The notes beneath the pieces were generated by a model. It saw only the letters and a list, made by a program, of their open reading frames with translations, made no database searches and had not been told where the DNA came from. From contig NZ_AEWG01000113.1 of assembly GCF_000190375.1 (NCBI RefSeq), positions 1 to 64,000 on the forward strand: a stretch of 64,000 bases of DNA, read 5' to 3'. Both the position numbers and the translations under genes were made by a program. The stretch comes from Rubrivivax benzoatilyticus JA2 = ATCC BAA-35. Lineage in GTDB: Bacteria > Pseudomonadota > Gammaproteobacteria > Burkholderiales > Burkholderiaceae_C. This document shows positions 21,632 to 32,649 of this stretch, in pieces (position 1 is the first letter of the stretch; every line of letters starts with the position of its first letter).

Positions 21632-21770
21632 TGGGGCACCCTACGGCCTGCGGCCGGTCCCGCCAGGCGGGAATGAGCCCCGGACAAGTCCTGAGATCTC
21701 ATTGGGGCACCCTTCGGCCTGCGGCCGGTCCCGCCTGGCGGGAATGAGCCCCGGACAGGTCCTGAGGTCT
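21629..21770. repeat. 71-bp tandem duplication between cysT and cysW
   Basis: Two copies of a 71-bp unit (21629-21699 and 21700-21770) differ at only a few positions. Each holds a CCCGCC-A/T-GGCGGG hairpin and a CGGCCTGCGGCCG-type palindrome. Read in the gene direction, the first unit begins ATGA over the cysT stop, and the cysW start ATGAA follows the second, so each junction keeps an ATGA. The duplication pushes apart two genes that normally touch and may alter the CysT:CysW ratio (inference). Confidence 0.85.
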
Positions 21771-22606
21771 CATACCCCCCCCTGCCGCTTGCGCGCCCAG
21801 GCCTGCAGCGCGTTGATGACGAGCAGCAGCGCGAAGGACACGGTCAGCATCACCACCGCCACCGCGGTGGCGCCGGCGTAGTCGTACTGCTCGAGCTTGG
21901 TGATGATGATCAGCGGCGTGATCTCGCTGACCATCGGCATGTTGCCGGCGATGAAGATCACCGAGCCGTACTCGCCCAGCGCACGCGCGAAGGCCAGCGC
22001 GAAGCCGGTCAGCAGCGCCGGCATGACGATCGGCAGCACGACCCGGGTCGCCGTCTGCCAGCGTGTCGCGCCCAGCGTCGCGGCGGCTTCCTCGAACTCG
22101 CGGTTCACGTCCTCCAGCACCGGCTGCACGGTGCGCACGACGAAGGGCAGACCGATGAACACGAGCGCCACGAACACGCCCACCGGCGTGAACGCCACCT
22201 TGAACGGCAGCCACTGGCCGATGAGCCCGTTGCCGGCGTAGATCGCCGTCAGCGCGATGCCGGCGACCGCGGTCGGCAGCGCGAACGGCAGGTCCACCAG
22301 CGCGTCGACGAAACGCCGCCCCGGGAAGCGGTAGCGCACCAGCACCCAGGCCACCAGCATGCCGAACACGGCATTGACCAGCGCCGCCGCCAGCGAGGCG
22401 CCGAAGGTCAGCCGGTACGAGGCGACGACACGCGGCGACATCGTCGCCGCGACGAAGGCGTCCCAGCTCAGCGTCGCGGTCTTCAGGAAGGCCGCCGACA
22501 GCGGGATCAGCACGATCAGGCAGACGTAGAACAGCGCGAAGCCGAACGCGAGATCGAAGCCGGGCAGGACGGTGTGGCGGCGCAGCAGCGCGCGGGAGAA
22601 CGGCAT
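21770..22606 (-). CDS. cysT: Sulfate ABC transporter permease CysT (CysU)
   Basis: A 278-residue permease with about six helices. The EAA loop reads EEAAATLGATRWQTATRVVL, and FARALGEYGSVIFIAGNMP is the CysT signature. The ATG at 22606 follows GGAGGCCTG, so it is preferred over an in-frame start 81 bases upstream. It pairs with CysW to form the channel fed by Sbp. Confidence 0.94.
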   Translation of the reverse strand: MPFSRALLRRHTVLPGFDLAFGFALFYVCLIVLIPLSAAFLKTATLSWDAFVAATMSPRVVASYRLTFGASLAAALVNAVFGMLVAWVLVRYRFPGRRFVDALVDLPFALPTAVAGIALTAIYAGNGLIGQWLPFKVAFTPVGVFVALVFIGLPFVVRTVQPVLEDVNREFEEAAATLGATRWQTATRVVLPIVMPALLTGFALAFARALGEYGSVIFIAGNMPMVSEITPLIIITKLEQYDYAGATAVAVVMLTVSFALLLVINALQAWARKRQGGV

Positions 22607-22687
22607 CAGGCCTCCACGCGCCGTGCCGTTCGGCCGCGCTTCATCGGTTTGCTCATGCTGGCGAGGGGAATGCAAAGGCCGACGCAT

Positions 22688-22740
22688 CGTAGGCAGCGGC
22701 CGTGCGCGGCCTACGAAGCGTTTCGAGGATCGTTATGCGG
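22688..22740 (-). promoter_or_regulatory. Hairpin and 13-bp element between sbp and cysT
   Basis: A 7-bp stem hairpin (CGTAGGC/GCCTACG, 22688-22715) follows sbp without a T-run and could be an mRNA-processing or partial termination structure. Beside it (22728-22740, minus strand) is CCGCATAACGATC, identical at 12 of 13 bases to an element upstream of sbp (23870-23882). The shared element is a candidate CysB site. Confidence 0.45.
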
Positions 22741-22782
22741 CCGCCGTCTGTGCCTGCGCACGCCGGCGGCGGCCGGCGGCGG

Positions 22783-23796
22783 TCAGCGGCGCACGTAGAC
22801 CTGGTCGAAGGTGCCGCCGTCGCCGAAGTGGGTCTTCTGCGCCTTGGCCCAGCCGCCGAAGACCTGGTCGATCGTGAACAGCGTGACCTTGGGGAACTGG
22901 CCCGCGTACTTGGCCGCGACCTTCGCGTCGGTAGGCCGGTAGTAGTTCTGGCCGGCGAGGTCCTGGCCCTCGGGCGAGTACAGGTACTCGAGATAGGCCT
23001 GGGCGACGGCGCGTGTGCCCTTGCGGTCGACGACCTTGTCGACCACGGCCACCGGCGGCTCGGCCAGGATGGACAGCGAGGGCGCGACGATGTCGAACTT
23101 GTCCGGGCCCAGTTCCTTCAGCGCCAGCAGCGCCTCGTTCTCCCAGGCCAGCAGCACGTCGCCGACACCGCGTTCGACGAAGGTGGTGGTCGAGCCGCGG
23201 GCGCCGCTGTCGAGCACCGGCACGTTGGCGAGGACCTTGCCGACGAACTCCTGCGCCTTGGCCTCGGAGCCGTACTTCTTCAGCGCGTAGCCCCAGGCGG
23301 CGAGGTAGTTCCAGCGCGCGCCGCCGGAGGTCTTGGGGTTGGGCGTGATGACGCCGATGCCGGGCTTGGCCAGGTCGTCCCAGTCCTTGATGCCCTTCGG
23401 GTTGCCCTTGCGCACCAGGAACACGATGGTCGAGGTGTACGGCGCGCTGTTGTGCTTCAGGCGCTTCTGCCAGTCCGGCGCCAGCAGCCCGGCCTTGGCG
23501 GCGATCTCGTCGATGTCGTAGGCCAGCGCCAGCGTGACGACGTCGGCGTCCAGGCCGTCGATGACCGACCGCGCCTGCTTGCCCGAGCCGCCGTGCGACT
23601 GCTTGATCGTCACGTTGTCGCCGGTCCTGGCCTTCCAGTGCGCCGCGAACGCCTTGTTGAAGTCCTGGTAGAGCTCGCGCGTCGGGTCGTAGGAGACGTT
23701 CAGCAGCGTCACGTCCTTGGCCCAGGCGCCGGCGGTGGCGATGGCCAGCGTGGCGGCGGCCAGCGTGGCGCGCCAGGGGAAGCGGGTGGTGTTCAT
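22783..23796 (-). CDS. sbp: Periplasmic sulfate-binding protein Sbp
   Basis: A 337-residue solute-binding protein with signal peptide [18 protein letters not shown]... cleaved after GAWA. Sulfate-binding family blocks include [17 protein letters not shown] at the mature N-terminus, [18 protein letters not shown] and [18 protein letters not shown]. It delivers sulfate to CysTWA. It is the first gene of the leftward cluster; a 176-base spacer before cysT allows it to be expressed more strongly than the membrane genes. Confidence 0.95.
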
Positions 23797-25539: not shown

Positions 25540-26547
25540 TCAGCCCGCCACCGGCTGGATCGTCGCCACCGGCTCGGGCGCCAGCAGCGAGCCGTCGCGC
25601 AGGCCACGCAACGTCGCCAGCGCCAGCCAGGCGATGACCAGCGAAGCCAGCGCCAGCGCCACCGGCGCGAACGCGGCCAGCGCACTGCCGGGCTCGGCCA
25701 GGCGCAGTGTCAGCGCAGCGAACGCCGCCAGCGGGAACGACAGCCCCCAGTGCGGCAGCGCGAACGGCAGCGCCGCGATGCGCCGCGCCTGCGTGCCGGC
25801 CCAGACGACGGCGAAGGCCGCCGCGCCCCAGCACATCCAGCCCAGCAGCGGCGAGGCGCCGAACTGCAGCGCCGACAGCCCGACGACCGCCGGCGGCGCC
25901 ACGAGGATGAAGGCCGTGGGCCGCAGCCGCTCGGGCCAGGGCCCGCGCAGCGCCACACGCGTGGCCAGCAGGCCGATGACCACCGGCCAGAACACCAGGC
26001 CGACGCCGAACTGCGCCGCCGACCATTCGACCCGCCCCAGCGGCACGCCGGCCAGCGGCGCCAGCACGTTGCCGACCACCGGGATCAGCATCGCCGGCGT
26101 GACGCCGGGCCACTGCAGGCCGCCGGACTGGGCGTCGTGCCACCAGTGCTGCAGCACCCAGGCGGTGACGACCAGCTGCCCCAGGCAGCCTGCCCACCAG
26201 ACGGCCTCGATCCAGCGCGCCGGGCCGAGCAGCGCGGTGGCCACCGTCGCCAGCAGGATCACGGCCACCGGCATCGCGGCGACGAAGGGGTAGCGCACCG
26301 GGTGGCGCCGGTCCTCGCGCCAGGCCTCGGGGTGGCGCGACAGGCGCAGCACGAAGGCCCCGGCCAGCGCAAGGAAGACGAGCCCGGCCAGCGCGCCCAG
26401 GGCCAGCGCGATCGCGCCGGCCATCTCGCCCATCAGCGGCACTGCGCGGTGCCAGGCGAGCGACAGGCCGCACAGGCCCATCACGGTGGTGAACCAGCCG
26501 GGGTGGAGGAACTTCAGCGCGTCGGGACGGGACATGCGTGGGGCCAT
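25540..26547 (-). CDS. TDT/SLAC1 family membrane transporter (TehA-like)
   Basis: A 335-residue integral membrane protein with about ten helices. The N-terminal PGWFTTVMGLCGLSLAWHRA is typical of tellurite-resistance/dicarboxylate (TDT) transporters related to the plant anion channel SLAC1. Further family segments are LIPVVGNVLAPLAGVPLG and LPHWGLSFPLAAFAA. It likely conducts anions such as chloride, nitrate or dicarboxylates. The start is uncertain between 26547 and 26535. It converges with the histidine phosphatase gene, 12 bases apart. Confidence 0.85.
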   Translation of the reverse strand: MAPRMSRPDALKFLHPGWFTTVMGLCGLSLAWHRAVPLMGEMAGAIALALGALAGLVFLALAGAFVLRLSRHPEAWREDRRHPVRYPFVAAMPVAVILLATVATALLGPARWIEAVWWAGCLGQLVVTAWVLQHWWHDAQSGGLQWPGVTPAMLIPVVGNVLAPLAGVPLGRVEWSAAQFGVGLVFWPVVIGLLATRVALRGPWPERLRPTAFILVAPPAVVGLSALQFGASPLLGWMCWGAAAFAVVWAGTQARRIAALPFALPHWGLSFPLAAFAALTLRLAEPGSALAAFAPVALALASLVIAWLALATLRGLRDGSLLAPEPVATIQPVAG

Positions 26548-26665
26548 GGGCAAACCGGCGCGCGCGGCAGGCGCGACGCCGGCCGGCCCCGCACGCGGCA
26601 GGGCCGGAGGTTCTTCGGTTCGAGAGCGGGCCGACAGGCGCCCGCGCGTGGCTTCGCCCGCGGGC

Positions 26666-26956
26666 TCAGCGCACCTTGGACAGCAGGTTCTGCACGTCGG
26701 CCAGCACCGCGGCGAGTTCGTCCTCGCGCGACTCGGCCAGCGACAGGCGCTGCTGCAGTTCCTGCTGCATGAAGCACACCGTCATGCGCACGTAGGTGCT
26801 GTCCAGCGCCTTGCGCACGGCCGACATCTGGCCGGCGATCTCGAGGCAGGGTTCACCTTCCTCGACCATGCGCTGGATGCCCCGCAACTGACCCTCGGCA
26901 CGCTTGAGGCGGTTCAGGATGTCGGTGCGGCTGGTGGTGTCGACGAGCGAGCTCAT
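26666..26956 (-). CDS. CsoR/RcnR/FrmR-family (DUF156) repressor, variant ligand site
   Basis: A 96-residue all-helical DNA-binding repressor. The family core LNRLKRAEGQLRGIQRMVEE and QMSAVRKALDS is clear. Cys37 aligns with the first ligand cysteine. The positions of CsoR's second ligands (+25 His, +29 Cys) are Phe62 and Glu66, while the only other cysteine is Cys61 (+24). It therefore has neither the Cu(I) CsoR triad, the CstR Cys pair, nor the FrmR histidine in the usual place. It is the last gene of the operon starting at 31571, so the operator at 31588 gives autoregulation. The start at 26956 skips 15 residues of a longer frame. Confidence 0.87.
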   Translation of the reverse strand: MSSLVDTTSRTDILNRLKRAEGQLRGIQRMVEEGEPCLEIAGQMSAVRKALDSTYVRMTVCFMQQELQQRLSLAESREDELAAVLADVQNLLSKVR

Positions 26957-27010
26957 GGGGCAGGGCTCCGGGGACGGGGCGGATGGATCGTGTACCCCCA
27001 TTGTCCTACC

Positions 27011-27226
27011 TCAAGCACGTTTGGTGACGGGGACGCCCAGCTTCTTCAGCACGATGCCCAGCGGGCAGACGTCGGTGAAGCCGAACTGGAACAGGTTCAG
27101 GCCGACGAAGGCGGTGAAGGCCAGCCACCATTCGCTGACGAACAGCGGGCTGGCCGGCGCGCCCAGCGCCAGCGAGATCAGGATGAAGCTGCCCGCGAAG
27201 ACGCGGATCAGGCGGTCGACGGTCAT
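27011..27226 (-). CDS. DUF2892 (YgaP-type) small membrane protein
   Basis: A 71-residue inner-membrane protein with two helices (IRVFAGSFILISLALG and WWLAFTAFVGLNLFQFGF) followed by CPLGIVLKKLGV, the DUF2892 hallmark with its single cysteine. In YgaP this domain is fused to a rhodanese and lies in sulfur metabolism; stand-alone copies often accompany CsoR-type repressors and efflux pumps. It sits 2 bases after the RND gene and 54 before the repressor gene, so it belongs to the same transcript. Confidence 0.9.
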   Translation of the reverse strand: MTVDRLIRVFAGSFILISLALGAPASPLFVSEWWLAFTAFVGLNLFQFGFTDVCPLGIVLKKLGVPVTKRA

Positions 27227-27228
27227 CG

Positions 27229-30200
27229 TCAGGCTCCTTCGGTTGCGGGTGGGGTCTCGTGGCGCCGGCGGAACAGCGCGTAGTACAGGACCGGGATCAC
27301 GACCAGCGTCAGCAGCGTGGACACGGCGATGCCGAACAGCAGCGAGATCGCGAGGCCGTTGAAGATCGGGTCGTCGAGGATGAAGAGCGCGCCGGTCATC
27401 GCCGCCAGGCCGGTCAGCGCGATCGGCTGAGCGCGCACCGCGGCGGCGTCGACCACCGCCTGCTTGAACGGCACGCCGCGTGCGGCCTGCAGCTCGATGA
27501 AGTCGACGAGCAGGATCGAGTTGCGCACGATGATCCCGGCCAGCGCGATCATCCCGATCATCGAGGTGGCGGTGAACTGCATGCCCAGCAGCGCGTGGCC
27601 GGGCATCACGCCGATGATCGTCAGCGGGATCGGCGCCATGATCACCAGCGGCGCGAGGTAGCTGCGGAACTGGGCGACGACCAGCAGGTAGATCAGGATC
27701 AGCCCGACGCCGTAGGCCGCGCCCATGTCGCGGAAGGTCTCGTAGGTGATCTGCCACTCGCCGTCCCACTTCAGCGCGTACTCGGCGTAGGGGTTGGCGG
27801 GCTGGCGGATCCAGTACTCGCCCAGCGGGCCGGCGTTCGGCAGCGCCGCGTCGGCCAGCCGCGAGCGGATGCCGAACAGGCCGTACAGCGGCGAGTCGGG
27901 TGTCGCGCCACCGGCGCCGACGTCACCGTAGACGTAGCTGACGCCCTGCAGGTCCTTGGTGTAGAGCGGCTTGTCGACGACGCCGCGTTCGACACGCACC
28001 AGTTCTGACAGCGGCACCAGCGCACCCGGGGCGCTGCGCAGCGGCAACGCCAGCAGCGCATCCAGGCCGACCTGGGCCTCGCGCGGCAGCTGCAGCCGCA
28101 CCGGCACCGGGTACTTGGACTGGCCGTCGTGCAGCCAGGCGGCGTCGGCGCCCGACAGCGCGCCCTGCACCGTGGCGGCGATGTCGGCCACCGCGATGCC
28201 CAGCGTCTCGGCGCGCTGGCGGTTCACACGGAGGAAGGCGCGCGGCGCGTCGGCGTGCAACGAGCTGTCGATCGACGTGACGTCGGGCGTCGCGTGGAAG
28301 GCCTGCTCCAGCCGCGCGGCGAGCTGCTGGCGGCCGGCCTCGTCGGGGCCGTAGACCTCGGCGACGATCGGGCTCATCACCGGCGGGCCGGGCGGCACCT
28401 CGACGAGTTTCAGCTTGGCGCCGCGGCGCGCGGCGATCTTTTGCAGCTCCGGGCGCAGGCGCTGGGCGATCGCGTGGCTCTGCTCGTGGCGCTCGGACTT
28501 GTCGACCAGATTGACCTGCAGCTCGCCCTGCTCGGCGTCGGCACGTTGGTAGTACTGGCGCACCAGGCCGTTGAAGGTGATCGGGCTGGCGGTGCCGGCG
28601 TAACCCTGCAGGTCGCGCACCTCGGGCTGGGCGGCGAGGTAGGCGCCGAGCTCGTGCAGCGTCGCCGCGGTGTCTTCCAGCGGCGTGCCGGCCGGCATGT
28701 CGACGACGAGCGCGAACTCGCTCTTGTTGTCGAAGGGCAGCATCTTCAGCACCACCCACTGCACGGCGGCCAGGCCGACCGACAGCACGAGCGCGGCGAC
28801 GATGCCGGCCAGCAGCAGCCAGCGCTTGCGCGCGCTGTCCAGCAGCGGCTGCAGCAGCCGCGCGAAGAAGCCCTGCAGCCGCCCGGCCAGCGCCTCGGCG
28901 CGGCCGCCGTGCGCCGCGGCGCCGTGCGGCTTCATCAGCTTCAGCGCCAGCCACGGCGTGACCGTGAAGGCGATCGCCAGCGAGATCGCCATGCCCAGGC
29001 TGGAGTTGATCGGGATCGGGCTCATGTACGGGCCCATCAGCCCGCTGACGAAAGCCATCGGCAGCAGCGCCGCGATGACCGTCATCGTCGCCAGGATCGT
29101 CGGCCCGCCGACCTCGTCGACCGCGGCGGGGATGATGTCGCGCAGCGGCCGGCCGGGCTCCAGCCGCTGGTGGCGGTGGATGTTCTCGACGACGACGATG
29201 GCGTCGTCGACGAGGATGCCGATCGAGAAGATCAGCGCGAACAGCGACACGCGGTTCAGCGTGAAGCCCCAGGCCCAGCTCGCGAACAGCGTCGCCGCCA
29301 GCGTCAGCACGACGGCGGCGCCGACGATCACCGCCTCGCGCCGGCCCAGCGCCAGGCCGACGAGCAGGATCACCGAGCCGGTGGCGAAGACGAGCTTGCT
29401 GATCAGCTTGTTCGCCTTCTCGGCGGCGGTGGCGCCGTAGTCGCGTGTCACCGTCGCCTCGATGCCGTCGGGCAGCAGGCCGTTGCGCAAGGCGTCGACA
29501 CGTTCGCGCGCCGCGCGCGCGACGTCCACCGCGTTGGTGCCGGGTTTCTTCGTCAGCGTCAGCGTCACCGCCGGGTGGCCGCCCGCGGCGCCGCTGGCGC
29601 CGCTCGCGCCGGTCTCGCCGGCACCGCCGGGCGTGAACCAGACGTAGCGCGAGGGCTGGGCCGCGCCGTCGGCGACCTCGGCCACCTCGCGCAGATAGAC
29701 CGGGCGCCCGCCGTGCGTGCCGACGACGAGTTCGCCGACCTCGGCGGCCGAACGCAGGAACTCGCCGGTCTCGACCGTCAGCGCGCCGCCGCGTTCGTCG
29801 ATCACGCTGCCGGCCGGCATGCCCTGATTGGCGGCGGCCAGCGTCTGCTTCAGGCGCAGCAGGTCGACACCGCGTTCGCGCAGCCGCGCCGGCTGCAGCG
29901 TCACCTGGACGACGCGGCCCGGGCCGCCGATCGTCTGCACCTCGCGTGCGCCGGGCACACGCTTGAGTTCGGCCTCCAACGCGTGCGCGACACGCTCCAG
30001 GTCAGCGGCGGCGCGGTCGTCGCGGCTCCACAGCGTCAGCGCCAGCACCGGCACGTCGTCGATGCCCTTGGGCTTGACGATCGGGGGCAGCGTGCCCAGG
30101 CCGGCGGGCAGCCAGTCCTGGTTGGCGTCGAGCACGTCGTACAGCCGCACCAGGGCCTCGGTGCGGGGCACGCCGACCTCGAACTGCACCGTCAGCACCG

Positions 30201-30507
30201 CCATCCCGGGGCGCGAGACCGAGTACGTGTGCTCGATGCCGGCGATCTGGCCCAGCACCTGTTCGGCCGGGCGCGCGACCATGTTCTGCACGTCGGCCGA
30301 CGAGGCGCCCGGGAACGGGATCAGCACGTTGGCCATCGTGACGTTGATCTGCGGCTCCTCCTCGCGCGGCGTCACCAGCACGGCGAACAGGCCCAGCAGC
30401 AGCGCCACCAGCGCCAGCAGCGGCGTGATCGCGTTGGCCTGGAAGGCGCGCGCCAGGCGGCCGGCGATGCCCAGCGGGGCGCTGTCGCTCACGGCGGGCT
30501 CGCTCAC
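27229..30507 (-). CDS. RND efflux transporter permease subunit
   Basis: A 1092-residue AcrB-family proton antiporter. There are twelve membrane helices and two large periplasmic loops. TM4 carries the proton-relay pair in GILVDDAIVVVENIHRHQ (near residue 434), the drug-exporter (HAE) form rather than the heavy-metal (HME) pattern. The segment VSGLMGPYMSPIPINSS is typical of a less-studied RND clade. The GTG start overlaps the adaptor stop (GTGA). No outer-membrane channel gene is nearby. The substrate is unknown; the CsoR-type control hints at a thiol, aldehyde or metal-linked stress. Confidence 0.93.
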   Translation of the reverse strand: MSEPAVSDSAPLGIAGRLARAFQANAITPLLALVALLLGLFAVLVTPREEEPQINVTMANVLIPFPGASSADVQNMVARPAEQVLGQIAGIEHTYSVSRPGMAVLTVQFEVGVPRTEALVRLYDVLDANQDWLPAGLGTLPPIVKPKGIDDVPVLALTLWSRDDRAAADLERVAHALEAELKRVPGAREVQTIGGPGRVVQVTLQPARLRERGVDLLRLKQTLAAANQGMPAGSVIDERGGALTVETGEFLRSAAEVGELVVGTHGGRPVYLREVAEVADGAAQPSRYVWFTPGGAGETGASGASGAAGGHPAVTLTLTKKPGTNAVDVARAARERVDALRNGLLPDGIEATVTRDYGATAAEKANKLISKLVFATGSVILLVGLALGRREAVIVGAAVVLTLAATLFASWAWGFTLNRVSLFALIFSIGILVDDAIVVVENIHRHQRLEPGRPLRDIIPAAVDEVGGPTILATMTVIAALLPMAFVSGLMGPYMSPIPINSSLGMAISLAIAFTVTPWLALKLMKPHGAAAHGGRAEALAGRLQGFFARLLQPLLDSARKRWLLLAGIVAALVLSVGLAAVQWVVLKMLPFDNKSEFALVVDMPAGTPLEDTAATLHELGAYLAAQPEVRDLQGYAGTASPITFNGLVRQYYQRADAEQGELQVNLVDKSERHEQSHAIAQRLRPELQKIAARRGAKLKLVEVPPGPPVMSPIVAEVYGPDEAGRQQLAARLEQAFHATPDVTSIDSSLHADAPRAFLRVNRQRAETLGIAVADIAATVQGALSGADAAWLHDGQSKYPVPVRLQLPREAQVGLDALLALPLRSAPGALVPLSELVRVERGVVDKPLYTKDLQGVSYVYGDVGAGGATPDSPLYGLFGIRSRLADAALPNAGPLGEYWIRQPANPYAEYALKWDGEWQITYETFRDMGAAYGVGLILIYLLVVAQFRSYLAPLVIMAPIPLTIIGVMPGHALLGMQFTATSMIGMIALAGIIVRNSILLVDFIELQAARGVPFKQAVVDAAAVRAQPIALTGLAAMTGALFILDDPIFNGLAISLLFGIAVSTLLTLVVIPVLYYALFRRRHETPPATEGA

Positions 30508-31571
30508 TTGGCGGCCACCGCGCCGGCCAGGCCGGCGCGCACGGCGTCGGCGGCGACCCGTTCACCGCCCTTCAGGCCGGCGAGGATCTCGACCGTGTCG
30601 CCGGCCGTCGCGCCGGCACGCACGGCCTGCAGCACGAAACCTTCGCCGCGCTGCACGTAGACCGCGCTCAGTTCGCCGCGGCGCAGCAGCGCTGCCGCCG
30701 GCACCGCCAGCCGGCCTGCGGGGGCGGCGGCGCCGGAGACGCCGGCGAAACGCACGCGCACGTTCTGGCCGGGCGCGAGGCCGGGCGTCGCCGTCGGCGG
30801 CAGGTCCAGCCGCCATTCGACGGTCTGCGAGACGGCGTCGGTGGCCGGCAGCTCGGTCTTGGCGACCGGCGCGACACGTCGGCCGTCGGGCAGCACGACC
30901 TCGATGCCGGCCGCCGCACGCGCCGCCGCCGAACGCGAGGCCGGCAGCTGCACGACGGCGCGCAGCGCGCCCGGCGCGTAGACGGTGGCGATCGCACGCC
31001 CGGCGCTGGCCAGGTCGCCGGCCTCGACGTGCGTGGCCTGAACGACGGCGTCGAACGGCGCAACGACGGCGGTGAAACCACGCGCCAGCGCCGCCTGGGT
31101 GCGCGCGGCGCGCGCCTGTTCCAGGCCGGCCTGCGCGGCGCGGGCCTGGGTCTCGGCGACGTCGAGCGCAGCCTGGCTGACGAAGCCCTGGCCACGCAGA
31201 TCACGCGTGCGCTGCAGCTGCAGCGAGGCGTTGCGCCACTCGGCGTCGGCCTGGGCGACGCCGGCTTCGCTGCGCAGCAAGCCGGCCTGGGCGTCGCGTT
31301 CGTCGATGCGTGCAATCAACTGGCCGGCCTTGACGCGGTCGCCGGCCTTCACCGCCAGCTGCAGCACGTTGCCCGAGACCTGGGCGCCGAGCGTGCTCTG
31401 GCGCAGCGCCTGCAGGCTGGCGTCGATCTCGAAACCACCAGCCGCGGCGGCCGGGCCGACGACGACCACCGGCACCGCCGGCGGCGCGGCGGACACGGAG
31501 GCGGCGGCCAGGCCGGCGAGCAGGGCCGGCAGCAGGGCGCTGCGGACGAAGGCGCGGGCGACGGGGTTCAT
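30504..31571 (-). CDS. RND periplasmic adaptor (membrane fusion) protein
   Basis: A 355-residue HlyD-type adaptor. It has signal peptide MNPVARAFVRSALLPALLAG, the barrel-sandwich half VSGNVLQLAVKAGDRVKAGQ, a helical hairpin (about 85-150), and the second lipoyl half FTAVVAPFDAVVQATHVEAGD. Beta-barrel domains follow. It is the first gene of the operon adaptor-RND-DUF2892-repressor. The promoter geometry puts the transcription start at or within a base of the ATG at 31571, so the mRNA may be leaderless; an upstream in-frame ATG (31589) lies inside the operator and would not be transcribed. Confidence 0.92.
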   Translation of the reverse strand: MNPVARAFVRSALLPALLAGLAAASVSAAPPAVPVVVVGPAAAAGGFEIDASLQALRQSTLGAQVSGNVLQLAVKAGDRVKAGQLIARIDERDAQAGLLRSEAGVAQADAEWRNASLQLQRTRDLRGQGFVSQAALDVAETQARAAQAGLEQARAARTQAALARGFTAVVAPFDAVVQATHVEAGDLASAGRAIATVYAPGALRAVVQLPASRSAAARAAAGIEVVLPDGRRVAPVAKTELPATDAVSQTVEWRLDLPPTATPGLAPGQNVRVRFAGVSGAAAPAGRLAVPAAALLRRGELSAVYVQRGEGFVLQAVRAGATAGDTVEILAGLKGGERVAADAVRAGLAGAVAAK

Positions 31572-31577
31572 GGCCGC

Positions 31578-31606
31578 ATCATAATTCATACCCCACAGGG
31601 TATCAA
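31578..31606 (-). promoter_or_regulatory. Promoter with embedded CsoR-type operator for the RND operon
   Basis: On the minus strand, TTGATA (31606-31601), a 17-base spacer and TATGAT (31583-31578) form a strong sigma-70 promoter. A perfect 6-4-6 inverted repeat, ATACCC-N4-GGGTAT (31588-31603), occupies the spacer and the end of -35. G/C-tract palindromes flanked by AT/TA are characteristic of CsoR/CstR/FrmR-family sites. Binding of the repressor encoded at 26666-26956 would block polymerase. Confidence 0.8.
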
Positions 31607-31660
31607 ATCGGCACCCACGAAGCCCGCGGCAACGTGTCGGAAGTCGCGCGGAACGGGCCG

Positions 31661-32054
31661 TCAGCCGGGCAGGCCGGCGCAGGGATCGCGGCGCGGCATC
31701 GCCGGCACCGCAACACCGCGCTCCTTGGCGCGTGCGGCCATGTCGGCGTGGTGCTGCTCGACGTAGGCGCGGCAGTCGGCGCGCGTCGTCATCGACCGCA
31801 TCTTCGTCTGGTGCGCGGCACGTTCCTCGGGCGTCATCAGCGCCCAGCCGGGTGTCACGCCCGGGCCCCAACGCCCCGCGCCCGGGCCGCGACCACCCCC
31901 GGCCCATGCCGCCGCCCGGGCCCGGGCCCATTCCGGGGCCCATGCCGGCAGCGGGTGCGCTGGCCGGCGCGGCCGGCGCCGGGGTCTGCGCGCAGACGGC
32001 CGCGGCAGCCAGCGCCGCGGCGGCGAACACGAAGGCAGTGCGGGTCGGGAACAT
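31661..32054 (-). pseudogene. Small secreted His/Cys-containing protein gene with a one-base frameshift
   Basis: Reading leftwards, the start (MFPTRTAFVFAAAALAAAAV) is a signal peptide followed by a Pro/Ala/Gly/Met stretch. The natural C-terminus (RWGPGVTPGWALMTPEERAA, DCRAYVEQHHADMAARAKER, RRDPCAGLPG) continues in the next frame. Removing one base from the five-base C/G run at 31896-31900 would restore a 130-residue protein. It could be a sequencing error, a real mutation or slippage. Two cysteines and a His pair suggest ligand binding. GGAGGCGACG precedes the ATG, and a CsoR-type operator lies upstream, so it likely belongs to the same regulon. Confidence 0.65.
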
Positions 32055-32082
32055 CGTCGCCTCCTGGAGTGGAGGCCTCAAT

Positions 32083-32098
32083 CTACCCCCGGCGGTAT
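32083..32098 (-). promoter_or_regulatory. Second CsoR-type operator, upstream of the frameshifted gene
   Basis: The plus-strand 16-mer CTACCCCCGGCGGTAT shares TACCCC and GGTAT, at the same spacing, with the operator at 31588-31603 (11 of 16 bases). It overlaps a candidate -10 (TAGATT on minus, 32085-32080) for the small secreted protein and covers the 3' end of the Nudix gene. The -35 is poor. Confidence 0.55.
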
Positions 32099-32649
32099 GC
32101 AGGAGCTTGATCCAGGGACAGGCCCGTGGCGATGCGCGCCAGCCGGGCATGGGCCCGCACCGGCTCGGCGTCCAGCGCCAGCCAGCGTGTCGGCAACTCG
32201 CCGTCGGCCGGCACGTCGGCGCTCAGGCGGGCGATGAAGCAGAAGTCCAGGTGCCAGTGCTCCGGCTCACCCTTGCGCGGGTTGGCGGGGATGGCGTGCA
32301 GGTCGACGTCGATGGCCGTTTCGTCCAGCACGGCGACGCCGGCGATCGCGGCGCCGCATTCCTCGCGCAGCTCGCGCGCAGCGGCCTGGCGCAGCGTCTC
32401 GCCGGCTTCGAGGTGGCCGCCGGGCTGAAGCAGCCGGCCCAGCGTCGGGTGCTCGACGAGCAAGGTGCGCCGGCCGGCGGCATCGACGACGAAGACGCTG
32501 GCCGTCAGATGCCAGGGGAAGCTGGAGCGCCGGCCGTGTGCCGCCGTGACCGGCGCGCAGCGGTCGAACGCCGCCCAGTCCAGCCCGGGGCGGGCGGCAC
32601 GCGCGCTCGCGATCTCGGCCAGCACGGCGGCCAGCGGCAGTTCATCCAT
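32083..32649 (-). CDS. Nudix hydrolase
   Basis: A 188-residue Nudix protein with a complete box, GGHLEAGETLRQAAARELRE (about residues 77-96), continuing ECG. The N-terminal 45 residues (AEIASARAARPGLDWAAFDR) form a helical extension. HWHLDFCFIARL follows the box. The substrate is unknown. It ends 28 bases before the frameshifted secreted-protein gene and lies downstream of ssb, whose terminator separates them. Confidence 0.87.
   Translation of the reverse strand: MDELPLAAVLAEIASARAARPGLDWAAFDRCAPVTAAHGRRSSFPWHLTASVFVVDAAGRRTLLVEHPTLGRLLQPGGHLEAGETLRQAAARELREECGAAIAGVAVLDETAIDVDLHAIPANPRKGEPEHWHLDFCFIARLSADVPADGELPTRWLALDAEPVRAHARLARIATGLSLDQAPAYRRG

Follow-up and report, generated by a model that had tools for sequence, protein, structure and literature searches.

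The window analysed here, the first 64,000 nucleotides of contig NZ_AEWG01000113.1 of Rubrivivax benzoatilyticus JA2, encodes a resistance-nodulation-division (RND) efflux pump in a predicted operon with a CsoR-family (DUF156) protein, which is probably a repressor of that operon and of genes scattered across the genome, released by sulfane sulfur in the manner of the sensors CstR and ScCsoR. Sulfane sulfur is the likeliest signal because the DNA site of ScCsoR stands before the same classes of genes, and this suggests that the pump is part of the cell's defence against reactive sulfur in Rubrivivax and many of its relatives. An initial annotation, made from the letters of the window, had left the signal open between metal, persulfide and aldehyde; the comparisons below narrow that choice, with reactive (sulfane) sulfur favoured over metal and formaldehyde.

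The pump operon and its promoter

The genes lie on the minus strand in the order adaptor, RND permease, DUF2892 protein, CsoR/DUF156 repressor and SLAC1/TDT transporter. The initial annotation had listed the first four as an operon, which coordinates and Pfam matches bear out, and had missed the fifth. The periplasmic adaptor (30504–31571; Pfam HlyD_3/Biotin_lipoyl_2, and TIGR01730 above its cut-off) is followed by an AcrB-like permease (27229–30507; Pfam ACR_tran) whose GTG start overlaps the adaptor stop, a YgaP-like transmembrane DUF2892 protein (27011–27226; Pfam YgaP-like_TM) whose sole cysteine, Cys54, is conserved in 65 of 66 homologues, and the repressor (26666–26956; Pfam Trns_repr_metal), with cysteines at positions 37 and 61. 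The SLAC1/TDT-family gene (25540–26553), ~110 bp downstream of csoR, is proposed as the last gene of the operon and would be co-transcribed with csoR, since SLAC1 homologues occur in 28 of 57 related loci with an adaptor and RND permease. A near relative is Rubrivivax gelatinosus DSM 1709 (L187), with 99% identity over 96 residues in CsoR and 95% in the adaptor.

The promoter TTGATA-N17-TATGAT read by the initial annotation is present at 31606–31578 on the minus strand (1 copy, shuffle mean 0.0), as is the perfect ATACCC-N4-GGGTAT palindrome that it placed there. A pattern scan of the window located this operator, ATACCCCACAGGGTAT, at 31588–31603, where it covers the final 3 nt of the −35 hexamer and otherwise lies in the spacer. 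The perfect form is a single copy in the whole window, and sites with up to three mismatches are not enriched (5 in the window, shuffle mean 4.23). Across the organism's own genome the exact ATACC-N6-GGTAT occurs six times against zero for the reversed pattern, and the looser TACC-N6-GGTA is less frequent than its reversed control (12 vs 44). Because the adaptor ATG starts only 6 nt past the second (−10) hexamer (31571–31583), the operon's transcript is probably leaderless. The operators of L191 and L199 also lie over the start region.

Conservation of the operator and co-occurrence with the repressor

Conservation was scored in a sample of 80 named repressor loci, the best 80 of at least 536 relatives, of which 57 have both adaptor and RND genes and sufficiently long upstream sequence; all counts out of 57 refer to these, and each locus was scored from −250 to +60 relative to the adaptor start. 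An exact TACC-N6-GGTA was found in 42 of the 57 loci and the reversed pattern in four (Fisher p 1e-13); elsewhere within the same loci the exact form occurred 13 times in 957,209 bp. The TAC/GTA palindrome that CsoR/RcnR-type DUF156 proteins have at their own promoter is thus widespread here, and the earlier proposal of one CsoR-family repressor with a matching operator at the pump promoter, which loss of the site from orthologous promoters was to have undone, holds. Spacing at the adaptor start is strict (N6 in 42 loci, N7 in three, N3–N5 and N8–N11 in none). Ten of the 15 loci without an exact site have a site with one mismatch, and the other misses include four loci of the Thiomonas type (L252, L259, L264, L266), whose pump is divergent (~40% identity). 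Two exact operators are present in eight loci and are 24 bp apart in five of these (L196, L207, L210, L224, L232), an arrangement that possibly reflects cooperative binding.

A comparison of 37 family genomes with a close repressor homologue and 37 without a match, the latter taken in list order and not at random, tied the site to the repressor. The repressor-bearing genomes contain 87 exact ATACC-N6-GGTAT sites against 9 reversed, 18 of the 87 coming from a single outlier (G139) and 69 remaining without it, and the repressor-less genomes contain 22 against 24 reversed; with G139 excluded, the excess has a Fisher p of 1.5e-6. The genome sets overlap the named loci (e.g., L189 and G098), and the two conservation counts are therefore not independent. 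In G139 (locus L109) the homologue lacks both cysteines and the 18 sites are of a different look, and for these reasons this genome was set aside before the genes next to sites were counted.

There is also a second DUF156 clade with a C-x23-C pair (L114–L117). A site of its own, TACCCCCTAGGGTA, is present in L114 and L116 with other neighbours, in both cases with a divergent lipoprotein–FadL gene pair, and the same pair follows a site in L177. Where a genome has two paralogues, some of its sites may therefore belong to this second clade.

Sites beyond the pump operon

The regulon had initially been described as self-contained, which it is not, as the same site recurs across the genome ahead of sulfur genes, tolC and others. 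Four of the six exact sites in the own genome could be assigned to genes: the pump operon; pcm-tolC, 6 bp downstream of a site on contig C7, with TolC above the TIGR01844 cut-off; a Tat-type sulfide:quinone oxidoreductase (SQR), 82 bp downstream of a site on C12 and closest among solved structures to human mitochondrial SQR (6mp5, E 8.9e-72); and a rhodanese, 38 bp downstream of a site on C22. The other two are on C15 and C17. Another rhodanese, on C159 (L002), has the looser TACC-N6-GGTA, not ATACC-N6-GGTAT, 33 bp before it. A site on C147 was treated as chance because the open reading frames (ORFs) of that contig, read by eye, resemble a ribosomal RNA operon.

Sulfur genes also accompany the pump itself. 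An SQR lies inside or beside the operon in 13 of the 57 related loci, an OsmC-family gene is within it in 28, and at least one of SQR, OsmC-family and SLAC1 genes occurs at the operon in 44. The operon SQR of these relatives is a clear SQR, with the Acidithiobacillus-type SQR 3sz0 as its best match (E 4.6e-178). Sites immediately precede SQR genes in L231, L247 and L258 and a SLAC1 gene in L225.

Neighbouring genes were tallied at 45 of the 53 non-operon sites outside G139, own-genome sites included, with eight sites outside the count (one each in G049, G076, G048 C17 and G166 C404, two each in G121 and G050). A strict list of sulfur genes accounts for 9 of the 45: SQR (two), rhodanese (three), a persulfide-dioxygenase-like gene, a SoxA/TsdA-type dihaem cytochrome and a pair of tetrathionate-reductase-family octahaem cytochromes, both above cut-off. 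The dioxygenase-like gene is Blh-related and at 366.6 bits falls under the cut-off of 625 of the two-domain family. A wide list of sulfur, thiol, respiratory, tolC and secreted-protein genes accounts for 22 of the 45, adding pcm-tolC (three), ccoG (three), a Rieske–ccoG pair, TrxC, a SulP permease, a molybdo-enzyme, a TmcC-like subunit and two secreted-protein homologues. None of 20 sites from repressor-less genomes stands before a gene of either list, and 19 of them are inside called ORFs; the two kinds of genome differ in this respect with Fisher p values of 0.048 (strict list) and 4e-5 (wide list). Among the other 23 sites are those at chemotaxis genes, a TetR gene, a lipoprotein–FadL pair and a copper pair in G048, and sites inside ORFs. 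By operator position, and not by expression, the sites fall before target classes of a CstR-type regulon (SQR, rhodanese, persulfide dioxygenase or exporter genes).

The exact operator is found 33–34 bp before ccoG in L150, L154 and L155, which may connect the regulon with the assembly of cbb3 oxidase. The gene nearest the L166 site encodes a Rieske-type protein (judged by eye), followed by ccoG.

A general thiol-redox or oxidant sensor (peroxide, HOCl, quinone), with the sulfur genes handling thiol damage, is an improbable reading of these neighbours. It would account for the two conserved cysteines, the OsmC-family genes in 28 of the 57 operons and TrxC at one site, and the CsoR-like TTHA1953 of Thermus responds to disulfides driven by Cu(II)/H2O2 (PMC10318464), but the SQR, rhodanese, persulfide-dioxygenase-like, TsdA/SoxA-like and tetrathionate-reductase-family genes point towards reduced-sulfur chemistry more than towards peroxide defence.

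Several observations weigh against control by sulfane sulfur. Both gene lists were drawn up after the sites had been seen. The CcoG of three sites serves cbb3 oxidase assembly and not sulfur oxidation, and a G048 site is flanked by copper genes (CopA-like and CopZ-like). Conservation of the remote sites is patchy, with sites at 2 of 30 rhodanese orthologue loci (the C159-type site recurs in one other genome only, G133) and exact sites at 2 of 6 SQR orthologues. Of 30 genomes with the repressor, three (G000, G094, G059; TolC models above cut-off in G000 and G059) have an exact operator 5–7 bp before pcm-tolC, against 0 of 30 without it (p 0.24), and the excess of one-mismatch sites at pcm (12/30 vs 2/30) is weakened because the reversed control reaches 7/30 in the same set. 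Further, two homologues depart from the cysteine pair (L100 without C37, L109 without C37 and C61), and its register is C-x23-C, against the C-x28-C of CstR, ScCsoR and TTHA1953.

The repressor and its signal

The repressor is a DUF156 protein by both domain (PF02583, 73 bits, cut-off 22.8) and fold, with helices at 7–32, 37–71 and 75–94 in a structure model of pLDDT 90.1; the 20 best Foldseek rows were all DUF156 proteins (E 0.005–0.14), with FrmR at the top. C37 and C61 are conserved in 80 of 80 named loci and in 35 of the 37 clade members of the genome set. The phmmer alignment to Streptococcus pneumoniae CstR is gap-free through the cysteine stretch and the model helix 37–71 is unbroken, so C61 truly lies closer to C37, by five residues (over one turn). 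Sequence distance is roughly equal to InrS, CstR, FrmR and most CsoR chains (40–37 bits).

Despite the Foldseek result, the repressor is very unlikely to be a FrmR-type sensor of formaldehyde or another electrophile. It shares with FrmR the cysteine at the N-terminal end of alpha2 and the Glu position, yet it scores 26.6 bits on the NCBIfam FrmR model, far below the cut-off of 133, and no formaldehyde gene stands at the operator sites examined. A formaldehyde signal was rejected because a different, FrmR-like gene (112.8 bits, cut-off 133) elsewhere in the genome adjoins frmAB, the genes for S-(hydroxymethyl)glutathione dehydrogenase and S-formylglutathione hydrolase, both above cut-off.

A copper or other-metal sensor of the CsoR/RcnR type controlling a metal efflux pump is also an unlikely explanation. 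The family name and the G-tract operator fit it, as do the copper-gene site in G048 and the ccoG sites in three genomes, CcoG being linked to the copper-dependent cbb3 oxidase. Against it, the second metal-ligand position is Phe in 71 and Tyr in 9 of the 80 loci, with Glu four residues on in 72, and none of the six own-genome sites has a copper gene beside it. A copper pump of the CusA/CzcA kind was rejected, as the permease scores 243.7 against the cut-off of 701.45 of the heavy-metal RND model TIGR00914 and contains no cysteine; multidrug-type models score best, themselves below cut-off. In addition, the copper response of R. gelatinosus is attributed to the MerR-type CopR and CadR in an account that leaves a further regulator possible (PMC11591864).

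Under control by sulfane sulfur, the reduced repressor would sit on ATACC-N6-GGTAT over the −35/−10 region and block the adaptor–RND–DUF2892–csoR–SLAC1 operon, together with scattered genes that in the own genome would comprise pcm-tolC, SQR and at least one rhodanese. Rising sulfane sulfur (persulfide or polysulfide) is predicted to modify C37 and C61, take the repressor off the DNA and allow expression. SQR and rhodanese would then oxidise and relay sulfur, the SLAC1/TDT protein would probably export an anion (e.g., sulfite), and the adaptor, permease and TolC may form a tripartite pump that removes a product of sulfur stress or a co-occurring toxicant.

A bolder version, possible but doubtful, holds that the repressor is a new sulfane-sulfur sensor of the C-x23-C type and the RND–TolC system a dedicated exporter of reactive sulfur across both membranes; its cargo might be glutathione persulfide, polysulfide or some further organosulfur compound that SQR produces. 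Persulfide export, if true, would give a multidrug-type RND pump a physiological role and sulfide detoxification the exit route that it lacks. With a predicted regulon to start from, the question can be tested in a purple bacterium that has a published collection of metal-response mutants (PMC11591864).

A second operator-like site and other neighbouring genes

The initial annotation had also described a second operator before a gene for a small secreted protein. A tentative, imperfect site, CTACCCCCGGCGGTAT, is present at 32083–32098 with two mismatches to the 12 specified bases, the spacer between TACCCC and GGTAT being N4 and not N5. It covers the stop and last codons of a NUDIX-domain gene (32083–32649) and is retained in R. 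gelatinosus at the equivalent coding position. The secreted-protein gene (31661–32054, minus strand; no Pfam family) is frameshifted and split over two frames in the present assembly. The frameshift falls in a G-rich stretch and an intact copy exists in R. gelatinosus (L187:3929–4318), so it may reflect either a mistake in the assembly or a mutation of recent date. No site was found within 200 bp of the secreted-protein homologues of L191, L199, G059, G193, G098 and G121, but the homologue in G133 has an exact site 37 bp before its start, and G091 has a one-mismatch site at 37 bp and, at a second, more distant homologue, an exact site 53 bp upstream. A role as an operator is left as plausible, because the site is imperfect, lies in the end of the NUDIX gene and is absent before most of the homologues tested while present in G133 and G091.

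Genes of a sulfate ATP-binding cassette (ABC) transporter lie 2–3 kb from the operon (21770–23796), the CysT permease and the sulfate-binding protein both being above NCBIfam cut-offs. A similar permease set, judged by eye, adjoins the cysteine-less repressor homologue in L109.

Comparison with described regulators

Sulfane-sulfur control by DUF156 proteins has been described for Firmicutes, Streptomyces and Thermus (PMC5480029, PMC7533328, PMC10318464). ScCsoR of Streptomyces coelicolor is a sulfane-sulfur sensor that binds ATACCn6GGTAT, represses a persulfide dioxygenase, a rhodanese and a TauE sulfite transporter, and dissociates from DNA upon persulfidation of Cys37 (PMC7533328). The present system shares with it the DUF156 domain, two cysteines, the operator and the occurrence of two sites in one promoter, but the cysteines of ScCsoR are Cys37/Cys66 (C-x28-C) in place of C37/C61, and the circuit of ScCsoR is described as local, with four genes that include no RND pump, SQR or tolC (PMC7533328). 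CstR of Staphylococcus aureus and its relatives likewise has two cysteines and targets SQR, a persulfide dioxygenase/sulfurtransferase and an exporter; it differs in its C31/C60 pair and, as described, in having no RND pump, and the S. aureus protein is said to regulate one operon directly (PMC5480029, PMC9774590). TTHA1953 of Thermus thermophilus is CsoR-like and serves sulfur genes dispersed over the genome, as here, but has C39/C68, the operator TACNNTACNNNNGTANNGTA and Sox gene targets, and is not released by NaHS (PMC10318464).

The copper repressors of CsoR type 2 share a TAC/GTA inverted repeat flanking G-tracts, but they have TAC-X9-GTA and copper efflux targets, one base longer than the TAC-X8-GTA found here (PMC3902906); their N7 form is present at 3 of the 57 pump promoters against 42 with N6. 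RND pumps are also reported to be induced by sulfane sulfur by way of MarR-type repressors; in Escherichia coli it reportedly acts on MarR, the repressor of multiple antibiotic resistance, a route with an unrelated repressor family and no dedicated sulfur regulon (PMC8614764, PMC11211675); a link from sulfur stress to efflux therefore has a precedent (PMC8614764). No description of a regulon of this kind, joining repressor, RND pump and sulfur genes, was recognised among the papers listed from an open-licence library, and the departures from known sensors are the C-x23-C pair and the inclusion of an RND pump and TolC. In combining a shifted cysteine pair with the DNA site of ScCsoR, this betaproteobacterial clade offers a natural experiment in sulfur sensing by the DUF156 fold.

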